A stretch of 60,224 nucleotides of DNA from NCBI GenBank assembly GCA_021646405.1, contig SOER01000004.1, positions 91,163 through 151,386 on the forward strand, written 5' to 3'. How positions within the stretch are numbered: the stretch's first letter is position 1; each line of letters starts with the position of its first letter. The stretch is from Candidatus Loosdrechtia aerotolerans. GTDB taxonomy: Bacteria > Planctomycetota > Brocadiia > Brocadiales > Brocadiaceae. The notes beneath the pieces were generated by a model, which was not told where the DNA came from, did no database searches, and saw only the letters and a program-made list of their open reading frames with translations. Below are positions 4,667 to 56,721 of this stretch, piece by piece. The position numbers were made by a program, and so were the translations under genes.

Positions 4667-5869
4667 ATGAGTACTTTTAAATACAGATTATTAACCACAT
4701 CCAGCGGTATTATCGAAGGGGAAAAGGAAGCCGCTAGCAAGGCAGACCTGGTAAATGAGCTACGCAGGTCAGGGCATATTATTTTACACATTAATCAAAT
4801 AGATAAGAATAAAAGATTTGGATTCCTTTTGAACCGTGCAAATAAAAAGGCTGTTTTGCCTTTTACCCAGGAACTTGCAACACTCCTTGAAGGAGGAATT
4901 CCGATTGATAAAAGCCTGTCTATCCTCCTGTCGTCCCAAAATAATAACACAATGAAAAGTGTTATTGAAGATATCTTAAATGGAATCAAGTCTGGAAAAT
5001 CTTTCGCCGAGGCCCTTACCAATCATAGTAAACTGTTTTCCGGTGTTTATATAAACATGATACGCGCGGGGGAAGAGGGTGGTGTATTGCCACAGGTACT
5101 GAAGAGATTAGGGGCATATCAGGAAAAGCTGCAGAAAGTCAGGGGTGAGATTATTTCCGCAATGATTTACCCGTTATTGCTCAGCATTACCGGTTTAATT
5201 TCGATCAGTGCCCTCATTGTCTACGTAATACCAAAATTCTCTGAAATATTTGAGGGAATGGGAATCGCCCTTCCTTTTTCAACACAGGTACTTATTGGTA
5301 TGAGTCATTATGCGATACGATATGGTTGGATTTCAGTGCTTATTGTCGCCCTGGTATTCTTTTCCTATAAAAAGGCTATGAAAGACAGGAGAATATCGGT
5401 AAAAATAGATCAAAAAAAATTGAAAACCCCTGTTATCGGCAACCTCCTCTGGAAGATACAAATATCCAGATTTGCCAGGACCCTTGGTACCTTACTGGAG
5501 AATGGCGTATCCTTGCTGAAGTCTATGGACATCGTTAAAGATGTATTATCGAATCACTACCTTACCGATATTCTTATCAATGTGAAGGGCAGTGTAAAGG
5601 ATGGATCGGGTCTTACCATATCACTTGCAAAAAGGGGATTTCTGCCGGAAATCGCCGTTCATTTATTAAAGGTTGGTGAAGAGACAGGAAACCTTGATAA
5701 AATGCTCCTGAAGGTTGCTGATAATTTTGATGCCGATACAGAACAACGAATGAAGAGGCTTGTAACGGCAGTAGAGCCTGTATTGATCTTGCTTATGGGG
5801 ACAATCGTTGGCGTAATCGTAATCTCCATGCTTACCGCGATATTGAGTGTGAATGATCTGAAGTTTTAG
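4667..5869 (+). CDS. gspF: Type II secretion inner-membrane protein GspF
   Basis: The protein has 400 residues, the standard length for GspF/PilC. It has two repeated T2SSF domains, each with the FTQELATLLEGGIP or FARTLGTLLENGVSL type of signature (about residues 66-79 and 265-280). Three membrane segments lie at about 168-190, 220-240 and 370-390. GspF is the polytopic core of the inner-membrane platform and probably the rotor that adds pseudopilin subunits. It is the last gene of this operon in the window; gspE, gspD and gspG are not here and must lie upstream or elsewhere. Confidence 0.93.
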   Translation: MSTFKYRLLTTSSGIIEGEKEAASKADLVNELRRSGHIILHINQIDKNKRFGFLLNRANKKAVLPFTQELATLLEGGIPIDKSLSILLSSQNNNTMKSVIEDILNGIKSGKSFAEALTNHSKLFSGVYINMIRAGEEGGVLPQVLKRLGAYQEKLQKVRGEIISAMIYPLLLSITGLISISALIVYVIPKFSEIFEGMGIALPFSTQVLIGMSHYAIRYGWISVLIVALVFFSYKKAMKDRRISVKIDQKKLKTPVIGNLLWKIQISRFARTLGTLLENGVSLLKSMDIVKDVLSNHYLTDILINVKGSVKDGSGLTISLAKRGFLPEIAVHLLKVGEETGNLDKMLLKVADNFDADTEQRMKRLVTAVEPVLILLMGTIVGVIVISMLTAILSVNDLKF

Positions 5870-6516: not shown

Positions 6517-6783
6517 AGTTAAGCTGTATAGGGATGAATCGTTTTCCCACGTACTTTTTTACGTAAGCAACCACACCGTTACCACTCCAGCGACCATTTC
6601 TTATCCCACTCCGGCGTGGGACTTTTGTACTGTCTGATACAGTATCTCAAACTTTTCTTTAGCCAGATATGGTTCTTGATGACTTTTGAACTCTGCCACC
6701 AAACCCCCTATTCCTTTCTGACTAAGACTATATCCCCACTCACGTACTGTTTGACGTCTCCGGTAGATGTGCCTGGCAATAAA
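6517..6783 (-). mobile_element. IS630-family transposase remnant
   Basis: On the minus strand this stretch is clearly homologous to the IS630 transposase gene at about 11620-11890. It encodes the same RRRQTV, GGLVAEFKS and EKFEILYQ segments. It begins at 6517 with TAGTTAA, identical to the outer tip of the IS630 terminal repeat, then jumps directly to internal transposase sequence. The copy has therefore lost its catalytic half and one end through internal deletion. Stops and divergence show it is old. Homology ends near 6783. Confidence 0.8.
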
Positions 6784-11392: not shown

Positions 11393-12549
11393 TTAATAAC
11401 AAATGAAACCGAACAGGAAATAAAATTGTTTAAAAGGATACTTCTGTACGTTATGAAAGTTTGTAAACAAGTTATACGAGGAGGTATCCTATGCTTCAAT
11501 TGGATCCGAAATGGGGAGAAACAGCAGAAACCCTGCTTCAGAAAAGTATTGCTACTGAAAATAAGCGTTTGAGAGAACGATATCTGGCATTGGCACTTAT
11601 TGCCTCTGGCAAATCGGTACAGAGTGTTGCCAGGCAAATCCACCGGAGACGTCAGACCGTAAGTGAATGGGTGCATAGTTTTAATCAGAAAGGAATAGAG
11701 GGTTTGGTGCCAGAGTTCAAAAGCCCTCAAGAACCATCTCTGAGCAAAGAGGAATTTGAGGTCTTGTATCAGGCAATACAAAAGCCTCCACGCCAGAGTG
11801 GGATAAAAACTGGTCGCTGGAGTGGTAAGAGTGTGGCCGCTTATATAAAAAAGGTATTTGGGAAAACGGTTCATCCCCATACAGCACGGCGGTATTTGCG
11901 TCGGTTGGGCTTTGTACTGAAGAAGCCCCACAAGAAGTTTATCAAAGCCAATGAAAAAGACCAGAAAGCATTCGCCATGGCTCTTGAGCACGTGGAGCAA
12001 AGTCGACCAGGCAAGAGTGTTACGGTCTGGATCGATGAAGGACATATCTGGCAGGATGCCCTTCTCAGACGAATGTGGTGTCCCAGGGAACAAGAGGCCA
12101 TAGTTGATTCTCTGAGCCCTGGCAAGAAGAAACTCTCTTTTTATGTTGCTGTAGTACGACCTCTGGGGAAAATTATCACGCTGCAAGTGAAGAAGTTTAA
12201 TCAAGAAAACACTGCTCGATTTCTGAAGAAAATCCGTGCTTGTTTGCCAGGCTATCATATTGATGCTATTTGGGATAATGCACCTTATCATCTGGGTACT
12301 ATTACAAAACAGACGGGGAAAGAAACCGATATTCATATACATCATTTACCTTCTCATAGTCCAAAGATGAATGCAGCTGAACAATGGATTCGATGGGCGA
12401 AAGAAGCCCTTTCCTATAATATCTGTTGGGAAACTCTTAAGACGTTAATTCGATCGTTCAATGGCTTTGTTGCCTCTATGGCTCAGAGAACTTCTGAAGT
12501 ACTTTCTCGGTGTGTTTCTTATTTGTTCGGTTTCAACTGCTGTTAACTA
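11390..12549 (+). mobile_element. Complete IS630-family insertion sequence (1160 bp)
   Basis: The ends are 26-base inverted repeats with 22 matches, starting TAGTTAA and sharing TGAAACCGAACA. They are flanked by TA on both sides (11388-11389 and 12550-12551), the TA target duplication expected for the IS630/Tc1 group. The single transposase gene fills most of the element. Insertion truncated the upstream GTPase gene. The transposase stop codon also lies within the right terminal repeat. Confidence 0.9.
11491..12546 (+). CDS. IS630-family transposase
   Basis: The protein has 351 residues. The N-terminal half has helix-turn-helix segments (SVQSVARQIHRRRQTVSEWVH), then a second winged helix with RYLRRLGFVLKKP. 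The DDE catalytic domain has D in VWIDEGH, D in IWDNAPYH and E in MNAAEQWIRWAKE. It carries out cut-and-paste transposition at TA. AGGAGG lies just before the ATG. Unlike the second IS630 at the right edge, it is one uninterrupted frame, so this copy may be active. Confidence 0.95.
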   Translation: MLQLDPKWGETAETLLQKSIATENKRLRERYLALALIASGKSVQSVARQIHRRRQTVSEWVHSFNQKGIEGLVPEFKSPQEPSLSKEEFEVLYQAIQKPPRQSGIKTGRWSGKSVAAYIKKVFGKTVHPHTARRYLRRLGFVLKKPHKKFIKANEKDQKAFAMALEHVEQSRPGKSVTVWIDEGHIWQDALLRRMWCPREQEAIVDSLSPGKKKLSFYVAVVRPLGKIITLQVKKFNQENTARFLKKIRACLPGYHIDAIWDNAPYHLGTITKQTGKETDIHIHHLPSHSPKMNAAEQWIRWAKEALSYNICWETLKTLIRSFNGFVASMAQRTSEVLSRCVSYLFGFNCC

Positions 12550-17539: not shown

Positions 17540-17987
17540 GTTTTGCAGAGCGAAGAGCCCCTTCGCTCTCTATGAAAAAGTCGCTACCAAAAGCAGTCTC
17601 ATTTACTGTCTGGAAAATTCAAAATTGTAGAACGAAGCGATTGCTTCGTCACGGGCGAGGTACCACTTCGCCCTCCATTGACAAAGTTGCAAAAGGCCTA
17701 ATCAAATTCGGGCAAAATGCTGTAAATAACAGATATATCCGGAAAATGGCATAAAAGCCCTGTAATTATCAGATTATTCTTATAGACAGATGGGCTTGCA
17801 TTGTTTTATTGTATGGAAATTTTAAAATTGCAGTTGTAAAGCGAAGAGTCTCTTCGCTCTCCATTGAAAAGCGTGGCGGAGATCTATCGAATGTATTGAA
17901 ATTTTAAAGCTATATACTGGAAAGTTCAAAGTTGTAGAACGAAGCGATTGCTTCGTTTACGGGCGAAGTAGCACTTCGCCCTACATA
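17540..17987. repeat. REP cluster (four elements)
   Basis: The stretch 17522-18046 has no gene. It holds single hairpins at about 17542-17568 and 17835-17862 and two double hairpins at about 17623-17679 and 17935-17986. Each double unit is ACGAAGC/GCTTCGT followed by GGGCGAAGT/ACTTCGCCC. Conserved flanks recur: an AAATTTTAAA-like stretch before the hairpin and AAAAAGTCGCCGAAGGCCTAA-like sequence after it. Confidence 0.85.
17721..17810. repeat. 90-bp dispersed repeat, copy 1
   Basis: This 90-base stretch aligns without gaps to 48221-48310. Shared blocks include AATAACAGA, TATCCGGAA, AATTATCAGAT and TAGACAG. It lies within a REP cluster here but alone at the other site. It is not part of a gene. 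Confidence 0.65.
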
Positions 17988-21852: not shown

Positions 21853-22092
21853 TAGTTGTAGAGCGAAGTGCCACTTCGCTTAATGTTCGAGAGTCATCAG
21901 AGGACTGATTTTGTATATCCGCCGGGAACTTAATGTATGTATAGAGATTCTCGGGCTGTAATTACAGAGCGAAGTGCCACTTCGCTCAACATTTAAAAGC
22001 CGCAGGGTACCTGTTTTAATGCCTGGGAAATTAAAGTTGTAGCACGAAGCGATTGCTTCGTCACAGGCGAAGTGGCACTTCGCCCTACATCA
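21853..22092. repeat. REP cluster upstream of the RAYT gene
   Basis: Single hairpins of the AGCGAAGTGCCACTTCGCT type lie at about 21858-21880 and 21965-21987, and a double unit at about 22036-22090. They stand directly in front of the RAYT gene, the usual arrangement for REPtron units. Confidence 0.85.
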
Positions 22093-22118: not shown

Positions 22119-22739
22119 ATGAAAAATCATAAAACATTTTACAGACGCAACCTGCCCCATTATCAACCTGTTGGCGCAACATTTTTTGTGACGTTCAGAT
22201 TAGCAGGTTCGCTGCCCCGTGAGGCAGTCATTCGTTTAAAAGAGGAACGAATGCAGGATGAAGAACTGCTTTTCAAAATAAAAGACGAAAAGGTACGAAA
22301 GAAGAGAATGGCTGATCAGCACAAACGTTATTTCAGTGCGTTTGACAGGATGCTGGATAGTGCTGTAAATGGCCAGAACTGGCTGCATGATGAACGTGTG
22401 TCTCATATAGTTGCAGAGGCAATACATTTTCGGGATAGAAAAGCATATGATTTATTAGCTTACTGTATTATGCCCAATCATGTGCATATGGTTTTTACCG
22501 TAGAGCGAAGTGCCACTTCGCTCTGTATAATTCTTCAATCATTAAAGGCATATACCGCAAGGAAAGCTAATAAAATACTCGATCAAAAGGGCACCTTCTG
22601 GCAGCGTGAGAGTTACGACCATATAGTGCGTGAGGGAAAAGAACTGGAACGGATCATTCATTACGTTTTGCACAATCCCGTTAAGGCTGGTATGGTTACA
22701 AACCGGGAACAATGGAAATGGAGTTATTGCCGGAAATAA
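22119..22739 (+). CDS. REP-associated tyrosine transposase (RAYT)
   Basis: The protein has 206 residues of the IS200/Y1 transposase superfamily. It has YQPVGATFFVTFRL at the start, the HUH-type metal motif in MPNHVHMVF (about residues 119-127), and a catalytic Tyr in SLKAYTARKAN. GTFWQRESYDHIV and IIHYVLHNPVKAGMV are classic RAYT signatures. RAYTs cut and move single-stranded REP hairpins. ATG 22119 is preferred because the longer frame would begin inside a REP unit. A REP hairpin lies inside the coding frame (22500-22527) and is translated as VERSATSLC. It is flanked on both sides by REP clusters. Confidence 0.92.
   Translation: MKNHKTFYRRNLPHYQPVGATFFVTFRLAGSLPREAVIRLKEERMQDEELLFKIKDEKVRKKRMADQHKRYFSAFDRMLDSAVNGQNWLHDERVSHIVAEAIHFRDRKAYDLLAYCIMPNHVHMVFTVERSATSLCIILQSLKAYTARKANKILDQKGTFWQRESYDHIVREGKELERIIHYVLHNPVKAGMVTNREQWKWSYCRK
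22500..22527. repeat. REP hairpin inside the RAYT reading frame
   Basis: The sequence TAGAGCGAAGTG/CACTTCGCTCT matches the free REP copies and lies in frame within the RAYT gene, between the HUH motif and the catalytic Tyr. It adds about nine residues starting at Val128 without breaking the frame. Confidence 0.85.
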
Positions 22740-22756
22740 TGTCGTATTATTTATTA

Positions 22757-23043
22757 ATTGTAGAGCGAAGTGGTACTTCGCTCATAACAAAGCAGTGCCC
22801 TCTGGCTCGAAAATACGGCTGGCTGTCTAGTAATTAAACATTTTCATGGTTTCAGAGTGCCGCAAGAACGGCATGATGACTGTGTCTGTTACTCTGAGGT
22901 TCAGGACATGAAATCTTTAGTAATTTTTCAGTGCAGAGCGAAGTGGTACTTCGCTCTACAGTACAAATTGCCGAAAGCCTAACCTGATGTGTAGAAATTT
23001 CGAAGTTGTGGTTGTAGAGCGAAGAGCCTCTTCGCTCTACATG
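22757..23043. repeat. REP cluster downstream of the RAYT gene
   Basis: Three single hairpins lie at about 22759-22783, 22935-22961 and 23014-23041. The last two are followed by the conserved tails TTGCCGAAAGCCTAA and GCCGCCAAATGCCTAA. The stretch 22740-23241 has no other gene. Confidence 0.85.
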
Positions 23044-23899: not shown

Positions 23900-24279
23900 T
23901 TGTTTATTTCATAGTTGATTCGATCGCCCACGGTTGAATCGAAACGTTACGCATGTTTCATATGTCGGAAGTAATCCAAAACGTACGGTCTCATGCTAAA
24001 CAAAAGGTTCAATCTACAAGCTTGTCCCGTACTTGATACGAGAATTGAACCAGCCATAAGGGCGAAGGTTTGCTAATCTTTTTCCTTGTCCCTTGCAACT
24101 TGCTCCTAGTTTTATTAAGTTATTTTCAGGGGTGGTACAGGGCTGTTCAAGAGGTCCCAAATGCTAATTTTGATGTACACCTGTAGAGCGAAGTGGCACT
24201 TCGCTCTACATATATTGCATAGCTATTGCGTGTAGAAAGACTTTTTAGACGATCCCGTGTTACGGTGTTTTACTTGAAC
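23900..24279. other. Intergenic region with one REP hairpin
   Basis: No gene is seen. A REP hairpin of the AGAGCGAAGTGG/CACTTCGCTCT type lies at about 24183-24209. Another inverted repeat, GGTTCAAT paired with ATTGAACC, spans about 24008-24052. Confidence 0.55.
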
Positions 24280-35965: not shown

Positions 35966-36090
35966 AATGTAGAGCGAAGAGCCTCTTCTCTCGAAATAAA
36001 AAAATCATTAAGTTTAATATACAGGAATTTAAATATTGTAGAACGAAGCGCCTGCTTCGTTATGAGCGAAGTAACACTTCGCTCTACATT
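35966..36090. repeat. REP single and double hairpins between two RAMP genes
   Basis: A damaged single hairpin lies at about 35968-35993 and a double unit at about 36036-36088 (ACGAAGC/GCTTCGT then AGCGAAGT/ACTTCGCT), with the tail AAAAACCGCTGCAGGCCTAA. They interrupt the CRISPR operon between the two paralogous RAMP genes. Confidence 0.85.
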
Positions 36091-46304: not shown

Positions 46305-47233
46305 AGCGAAGAGCCTCTTCGCTCTCTGTTAAAAAGTTGTTGCCAACAGCATAAAACAATAGTAACAATTGAGTTTTTTGAAAACCCTTACACGGAGATA
46401 TTTATTGTAGGGGAGGGTTTTAAACCTGCTTCTTACCCGATGAAAGACTATCCCGCTGGTTATTGTGAGGGTCTTTTCCGAAGCGATCGTTCGACAGCCC
46501 ACGACGAAGTCCCACAGGCAGAGATTGCGGAGCCTGTTCCGAGCGTACCAGCAAGGGTCTCTTGGTTTGCTTCAGCTTCCACCTCGCAACCGATTCGCTC
46601 CTCGCAATGATATTTTTCAGGATTCTCAACTTCACTATTTGCTTACTGTATCAGAATGTTTTTATTCCCGTTTATCATTGGTAACTCCCCCTCTTTCCTC
46701 TCCATCCCTACATCCTCTACTCTTTTCTGGTATTTGAACGTGAGTGTGCGCAGGCTAAAGACCTGCTGCTGCTTGTCCGATGTAGCCGCATCCCTTCAGG
46801 GTGCGTTTCATGCCTAAATGCGGAAACAATGCGGTACTCTTTTCTCCTCCCCGTACCTATACTCTCCTCCCTGTTACCCTTTCCTCCTGCCAGTTTGTAT
46901 GTATACCCTCCATCTTTTCACCCTGAATGGAACGAAGGGTCTCGTTTTCTGTTATTCAGGTACAAGCAATATATTATCTGTCCGGTATCAACTCCCCTCA
47001 CCGAGTTAAAAAAAGATATGGGTAAGGACGAACTCCAGAGGGGGACAACCGCTGCTGCTCACTGTTGTAGCACGAAGCGATTGCTTCGTCACGGGCGAAG
47101 TGGCACTTCGCCCTACAACAAAAAGTCGCCGAAGGTCTCATTTAACGTTCAGGAATTTCAAAATACCGGAGATTACAGGTATATCTGCCGGATTTTAATT
47201 TTTGACTATAAAAGGTAAAGTATAAACAACAAT
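46305..47233. other. Gene-poor stretch with REP elements
   Basis: No credible gene. A REP hairpin lies at 46305-46329 directly after the LOTUS-like gene, and a double REP unit at about 47066-47117 before the regulator gene. A GC-rich segment at about 46465-46615 (TTGCTTC, CGCTCCTCGCAATGA) resembles widespread non-coding repeats. Frames here are not supported by start signals. Confidence 0.55.
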
Positions 47234-51969: not shown

Positions 51970-52092
51970 ATGGATTTATTGATCATACCGGACGGCAACA
52001 GGAGATGGGCGAGGGAGCGCGGCAGGGATTTTGATTTCGGGTACAGTCAGTTGCCCAGGAAAATAGCCTTTTGTTGTCATTTACCCTGGTAA
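51970..52092 (+). pseudogene. uppS: Undecaprenyl diphosphate synthase (UppS), N-terminal fragment
   Basis: GGAGG precedes ATG 51970. The first 27 or so codons (LLIIPDGNRRWARERGRDFD) match the start of cis-prenyl transferases, where Asp-Gly-Asn-x-Arg-Trp binds the diphosphate. The homology stops at about codon 28, close to the start of the 125-bp repeat at 52060, which provides the remaining codons and a stop. The rest of the gene (about 200 codons) is missing. Confidence 0.8.
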
Positions 52093-52184
52093 TTTACTGG
52101 CGCTTTTTACAAATTCTTACACCCCCTGTTGACTAGCTCCTCCTTTATTTATCAGGGGCTTTTAGTTTATGCGTAGACTCTATA
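52060..52184. repeat. 125-bp direct repeat, copy 1
   Basis: This 125-base sequence occurs again at 56597-56721 with one mismatch. It begins AAAATAGCCTTTTGTTGTC and ends GCGTAGACTCTATA. It lies directly at the point where uppS is cut off. It may be the end of an insertion sequence or a small mobile unit; I see no inverted ends. Confidence 0.85.
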
Positions 52185-56500: not shown

Positions 56501-56596
56501 AATTGGGTAAATTTAATCATCTTATTATACAAGATGGGCGCTCTTATTTTGTAATTTAATCCCTCTTTCCTCTCTCTTTTTTTGCCTTTTCCCGGT

Positions 56597-56721
56597 AAAA
56601 TAGCCTTTTGTTGTCATTTATCCTGGTAATTTACTGGCGCTTTTTACAAATTCTTACACCCCCTGTTGACTAGCTCCTCCTTTATTTATCAGGGGCTTTT
56701 AGTTTATGCGTAGACTCTATA
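56597..56721. repeat. 125-bp direct repeat, copy 2
   Basis: Matches 52060-52184 with one C/T difference. It lies about 100 bases beyond the truncated end of uup. The two copies bracket a 4.4-kb segment holding fdhA and the uup remnant. Confidence 0.85.

Follow-up and report, generated by a model that had tools for sequence, protein, structure and literature searches.

REPs that lie in frame inside a transposase gene have been described by Quentin et al. 2018 (PMC6006769), who in the main text of their paper report them for subclass 2.4 of TnpAREP and judge the region of insertion to be remote from the DNA-binding site. REPs inside many genes were also found by Di Nocera et al. 2013 (PMC3733652), and REP hairpins bearing GTAG are bound and cleaved by TnpAREP in vitro (PMC8266576).

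The gene studied here lies in a stretch of 60,224 nucleotides, which was analysed at its full length and is called the window in the following. By the description in the main text of PMC6006769 it is another case of the published subclass 2.4 phenomenon (group 4 of Bertels). As in that subclass, the gene encodes an HUH/Y1 transposase with NHVH and WQ motifs, has an insertion that separates the HUH strand from the next helix and varies among homologues in length and REP, and combines an in-frame REP between HuH and Y with REPs flanking the gene. The NHVH of the window RAYT fits the NH[IFV]H motif of the subclass, its Y motif is YVLHNP where the subclass has YIxNNP, and the 'double foot' GT[AG]G...C[TC]AC is present in the free copies and in the in-gene copies of the homologues L002 and L003, whereas the in-gene copy of the window has the left foot only. 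Categorical novelty of an in-gene REP is thus ruled out by PMC6006769. The matched inverted pair and the synonymous-site signal reported below were not found in the main text of that paper, to which this comparison is confined.

With the E. coli TnpAREP/RAYT (4er8, subclass 2.2) the window system shares the fold, the HUH and Tyr residues and GTAG-tagged REPs. Unlike the window REPs, those of E. coli have a bulge, and the post-HUH loop of the E. coli rayT is short and, unlike that of the window gene, contains no REP. Intragenic REPs and Rickettsia palindromic elements (PMC3733652) are likewise palindromic mobile repeats translated in frame in genes, but they occupy unrelated host genes at varied sites, whereas the type described here occupies the cognate transposase gene at a fixed site. 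The inverted REP pair in the Clostridia relatives is like a REPIN; unlike in a REPIN, the pair brackets RAYT coding sequence, and the window gene has one in-gene REP.

The RAYT gene and its in-frame REP

The ORF at 22119-22739 (+) encodes 206 amino acids from an ATG start. It matches the profile NF047646 (REP-associated tyrosine transposase) above the cut-off with an E-value of 7.8e-25 and Pfam Y1_Tnp with 3.5e-9, and is the sole full match of its kind in the searched genome of 3.26 Mb. The AlphaFold model of the protein (mean pLDDT 88.8) aligns over 138 residues with the E. coli RAYT-REP complex 4er8 (Z 15.9, rmsd 2.5), which outranks the IS608 and ISDra2 transposases as structural match. Both FWQ (the WQ motif) and the HUH motif N-H-V-H at residues 120-123 (22476-22487, +) are present. 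H121 and H123 are invariant in 42 homologues, as is Tyr182 (22662-22664, +), the presumed nucleophile. Most of the 42 aligned homologues have YIxxNP or YxxxNP where the window RAYT has YVLHNP. By its HUH motif, downstream Tyr, Y1 domain and GTAG-tagged flanking REPs, the ORF is identified as a RAYT/TnpAREP.

The in-frame REP, GTAG-AGAGCGAAGTGCCACTTCGCTCT, is located at 22500-22526 (+) and codes for V128 to C136, after the HUH motif (N120-H123) and before Tyr182. Its hairpin AGAGCGAAGTG-C-CACTTCGCTCT spans 22502-22524, the 5' foot GTAG begins at 22500, and the translation V-E-R-S-A-T-S-L-C keeps the frame. A preliminary description of this DNA had proposed that a REP hairpin lies in frame inside the RAYT gene, in the interval from HUH to Tyr, and the hairpin, its translation and the matching free REPs bear this out. 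In the DSSP assignment of the AlphaFold model the REP encodes the loop 129-134, preceded by the HUH strand (121-128) and followed by a helix (135-154), and the post-HUH loop with the REP is a surface loop. The right foot has decayed in the window copy (CTCTGT, not CTCTAC), and both feet, GTAG...CTAC, are intact in the in-gene copies of L002 and L003.

As single-stranded DNA the REP segment folds with -11.5 kcal/mol (z -5.6). When synonymous codons were redrawn over the whole gene, this segment was the strongest folding excess of the window gene (z -3.7), which rules out the amino-acid sequence alone as cause of the folding. A chance palindrome is ruled out by the codon-controlled folding, the z of the single-stranded fold and the count of REP arms against shuffles given below.

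Free REPs around the gene

Allowing at most one mismatch, the REP arm has 35 matches in the window, against 0.55 expected from shuffles. We counted 25 REP hairpins in the window, where about twenty free copies had been noted before, and the hairpin is indeed repeated as a free element. Some of the 25 form two-hairpin elements. The local cluster with these 25 hairpins extends from 13409 to 47113, and 20 of the 22 palindromes with the exact core in the whole 3.26 Mb genome are inside the 34 kb around the RAYT, suggesting a recent or local spread of a REP family that is nearly confined to this region. In the relative G003, 70 exact REP copies are distributed over many contigs.

Two free REPs upstream of the gene, at 21862-21880 and 21967-21987, have a core identical to the in-gene hairpin, loop included. 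Further free REPs are found just 3' of the RAYT (22763-22783), downstream of it (22935-22957) and, with both feet, at 23013-23041 (TGTAG...CTACA) and 24182-24210. The in-gene copy is the only REP of the window within a gene of known family; one REP doublet lies in an unverified ORF of 129 amino acids.

A two-hairpin form recurs alongside the one-hairpin form and consists of ACGAAGC-GATT-GCTTCGT, a short spacer and GGGCGAAGTGGCACTTCGCCC. It is present at 17632-17673, 17938-17981, 36042-36084, 47072-47113 and 22044-22084, the last being just 5' of the RAYT with GGCGAAGTGGCACTTCGCC as its second hairpin.

REPs in the loop of homologous RAYTs

The same REP is found at the same codon in homologues with 59-76% identity, many of the homologue loci coming from metagenome bins. 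These are L002 (76%, same GTDB family), L003 and L031 (67-68%), L007, and L032 (59%, Bacteroidota); in L050 the same REP occurs at the same codon with one base pair changed. It had been considered that all homologues might carry an unrelated sequence in this place, which fails for L002, L003, L007 and L032. At positions with identical amino acids the codons of the REP segment are identical in 8/8 (L002), 7/7 (L003) and 6/7 cases (L032), compared with fractions of 0.60, 0.56 and 0.40, respectively, outside the segment.

More distant relatives, from Ignavibacteria, carry single different REPs in the same place, namely GTAGGTCGGAATGACATTCCGACCTAC in L036, TGTAGAACGGTTTTTAAAACCGTTCTACA in L042, GTAGGGCGACGAGGCTCGTCGCCCTAC in L128 and GTAGGACGACCAGACTGGTCGTCCTAC in L129. 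Two-hairpin REPs occupy the loop in L034, L037, L040, L041, L062, L063, L068 and L097, and in L061 the post-HUH loop holds a tandem, in-frame array of some six REP units (5399-5650). The sisters L032 and L033 have the first arm GTAGAGCGAAGTG in common, and comparison with L032 shows that in L033 a two-hairpin REP is nested in the resident in-gene REP (5389-5470) with the frame kept. The nested REP resembles a free REP adjoining the L033 gene, and this nesting is the clearest sign that REPs may enter the loop as elements. The nearest homologues free of a palindrome, L035 and L044, have a loop of the same length as the window gene, so the window copy could possibly have arisen by replacement or by change of the loop sequence in situ.

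When 391 genomes of the Ignavibacteria class were searched with the pattern MPNHVH, 6-36 nt and GTAGNNCG, 15 loci matched. GTAG begins on a codon boundary, in the same reading phase, in all 15, and a palindrome is present in 14, the exception (L133) being a broken gene. In the window's own class the pattern was found in 3 of 75 genomes. Together with the homologues and the Clostridia cases, the Ignavibacteria loci rule out that the in-gene REP is unique to the window.

In 95 RAYT genes, the majority taken from the same homologue search, the post-HUH zone holds 2.5 perfect inverted repeats per kb and the remainder of the gene 0.46 per kb. On a RAYT tree built with the loop left out, 16 of 42 genes bear a REP, with 4 state changes against 13 for shuffled labels, and 0 of 500 shuffles were as low as 4. 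The REP-bearing genes are largely confined to one part of the tree, and within this group the sequence and number of REPs vary.

Directly beside the RAYT of L003, one on either side, lie two hairpins (GTGCGACGA...) at 1463-1490 and 2123-2144, which differ from its in-gene REP and resemble the ends of an element.

Codon-controlled folding and match with local REPs

With synonymous codons redrawn as control, the set of window-type genes has a folding excess at the post-HUH loop only, and the Clostridia set at exactly two loops. The fold window with the lowest z falls in the post-HUH loop in 31 of 80 window-type genes (13.7 expected); among the 50 Clostridia genes it falls in one of the two loops in 40 (15.1 expected). 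The sequences indicate that codon choice favours the hairpin beyond the need of the protein.

We compared the in-gene REPs with the flanks of the genes, 5-20 kb in extent. A REP matching the gene's own in-gene arm was present in the own flank of 11 of 23 genes compared to 19% for the flanks of other genes (permutation p 0.0007), and in 7 of 17 compared to 16% (p 0.0125) when near-copies were removed, in permutation tests that treat genes as exchangeable and correct incompletely for relatedness. Outstanding matches with the own flank are L037, L038, L063 and L068, of which L037, L038 and L068 are 5-kb loci. The test counts the bases directly adjoining the gene, and leaving those out misses flanking REPs. 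For roughly half of the relatives the fetched flanks held no matching REP, and several of the in-gene REPs have one or few copies in their whole genome. A large population of free REPs is therefore not the general rule. In G234 only two REPs of the in-gene type were found outside the gene in the whole genome, both flanking the RAYT and both differing from the in-gene REP by one compensated base pair. Set beside the 70 copies of G003, these two argue that the in-gene copy is not a mere reflection of a large free population. The question whether the segment is conserved where the genome has no such REP is answered in part by G234, which keeps the in-gene REP, but where the two flanking REPs exist.

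Paired in-gene REPs in Clostridia RAYTs

Among the hits of the homologue search were also RAYTs of Clostridia, whose palindromes lie in the post-HUH loop and in an N-terminal loop. From a search of 148 genomes of this class we drew a sample of 50 RAYT genes (L158-L207), selected for E-value and for how complete the match was. Under a strict rule of a perfect stem of 7 bp, at least one in-gene REP is present in 26 and both in 15 of the 50, which is an undercount because many Clostridia REPs have a bulge that is common to both copies. An alignment test was used instead, in which the N-terminal segment was aligned with the reverse-complemented post-HUH segment in 47 Clostridia RAYTs. The mean local score was 17.9 within a gene, compared to 8.6 between genes and 7 for control zones (p 5e-5). 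As the score within genes is far above that between genes, the two copies are inverted and matched within a gene. By this alignment, most of the sampled Clostridia RAYTs carry two inverted in-gene REPs that are matched within the gene and very different between genes. The matched pair is widespread, which suggests that the arrangement is maintained rather than merely tolerated.

REPs matching the in-gene copies were found in the own flank of 10 of 26 Clostridia genes, compared to 4% for other flanks (p 5e-5). In G466 the REP of its RAYT is found elsewhere in the genome, and it was not found in six tested genomes with other RAYTs. The near-invariant Gly51 and Pro113 of the Clostridia RAYT family appear to be REP-encoded.

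Origin and role of the embedded REP

We interpret the in-gene copy as the resident REP of the REPtron, which sits in a permissive loop and stays cognate because further REP insertion or homogenisation renews it, and we give this reading a probability of roughly 0.7. In this reading, the loop that follows the HUH strand would house a 'double foot' REP (GTAG-hairpin-CTAC), and varied sequence would be tolerated there by the protein as long as the frame is kept. The RAYT would recognise the embedded REP as it does the free REPs, and REPs could enter the loop by RAYT-catalysed insertion of a single strand, with one clear case of a REP inserted into a REP (L033). Renewed insertion, strand transfer or recombination would keep the in-gene copy in step with the flanking REPs, so the transposase gene would always travel with its own cognate REP. 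One of two origins proposed in the preliminary description, in which the REP was inserted into the gene of its own transposase and tolerated there, is supported by the GTAG foot, the site in the loop, the confinement in the tree and the single, double, arrayed and nested REPs of the relatives. The other origin, with this segment of the gene as the source of REPs that escaped and became free elements, is highly improbable. The identity of in-gene and free copies near the gene and the clustering of REPs around the RAYT agree with it, but in the REP-bearing clade the in-gene sequences of related RAYTs have changed completely, unlike the remainder of the gene, and they resemble the local REPs. Moreover, other RAYT branches without an in-gene palindrome (L046, E. 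coli rayT) still have REPs outside, and the L033 element went into an in-gene REP that was already resident.

An abundant mobile REP might also decorate a harmless loop passively; it would then be functionless and bear no particular relation to the RAYT. REPs are known within many unrelated genes (PMC3733652), and the loop is at the surface in the model, in a region judged remote from the DNA-binding site in the main text of PMC6006769. We nevertheless consider passive decoration unlikely: the RAYT is alone in carrying a REP among the window's genes of known family, the in-gene REP persists in G234 where free REPs are nearly absent, the hairpin is kept by codon choice and matched inverted copies are kept in two loops in Clostridia. 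A role in cis is about as doubtful, in which the RAYT would bind the hairpin, either in its mRNA or in the gene while this is single-stranded at the replication fork, and thereby limit its synthesis or direct cutting. Conservation of the hairpin beyond the need of the protein and its match with flanking REPs are consistent with such self-targeting, as are the REPIN geometry of the inverted in-gene pair in Clostridia and the binding and cleavage of GTAG REP hairpins by TnpAREP in vitro (PMC8266576). However, the same sequence pattern would result if the REPs were homogenised by repeated insertion or by recombination, and RAYTs without in-gene REPs exist, such as the E. coli rayT. Tentatively, the resident REP may belong to a wider design in which a RAYT gene is organised around cognate REPs that are embedded in it and kept as hairpins, with one or two REP-encoded loops tracking the surrounding REPs and a REPIN-like inverted pair inside the Clostridia coding sequence, all acting in cis as targets of the enzyme for self-limitation or self-seeding of the REP family on transfer.

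The arrangement bears on the way in which RAYTs and REPs remain matched and on the beginnings of a REP family in a new host. If a transposase gene always carried its own REP, the matching of RAYT and REP would be solved physically. The cognate REP of a RAYT would also be predictable from the gene alone, and self-targeting becomes testable with synonymous mutants.

Other repeats in the window

The window also contains a long inverted repeat of about 250 nt at 6523-6779 and 11627-11885, with 83-87% complementarity and a distance of about 4.8 kb between the copies. A direct repeat of 134 nt is found at 52051-52184 and 56588-56721, with 97% identity.
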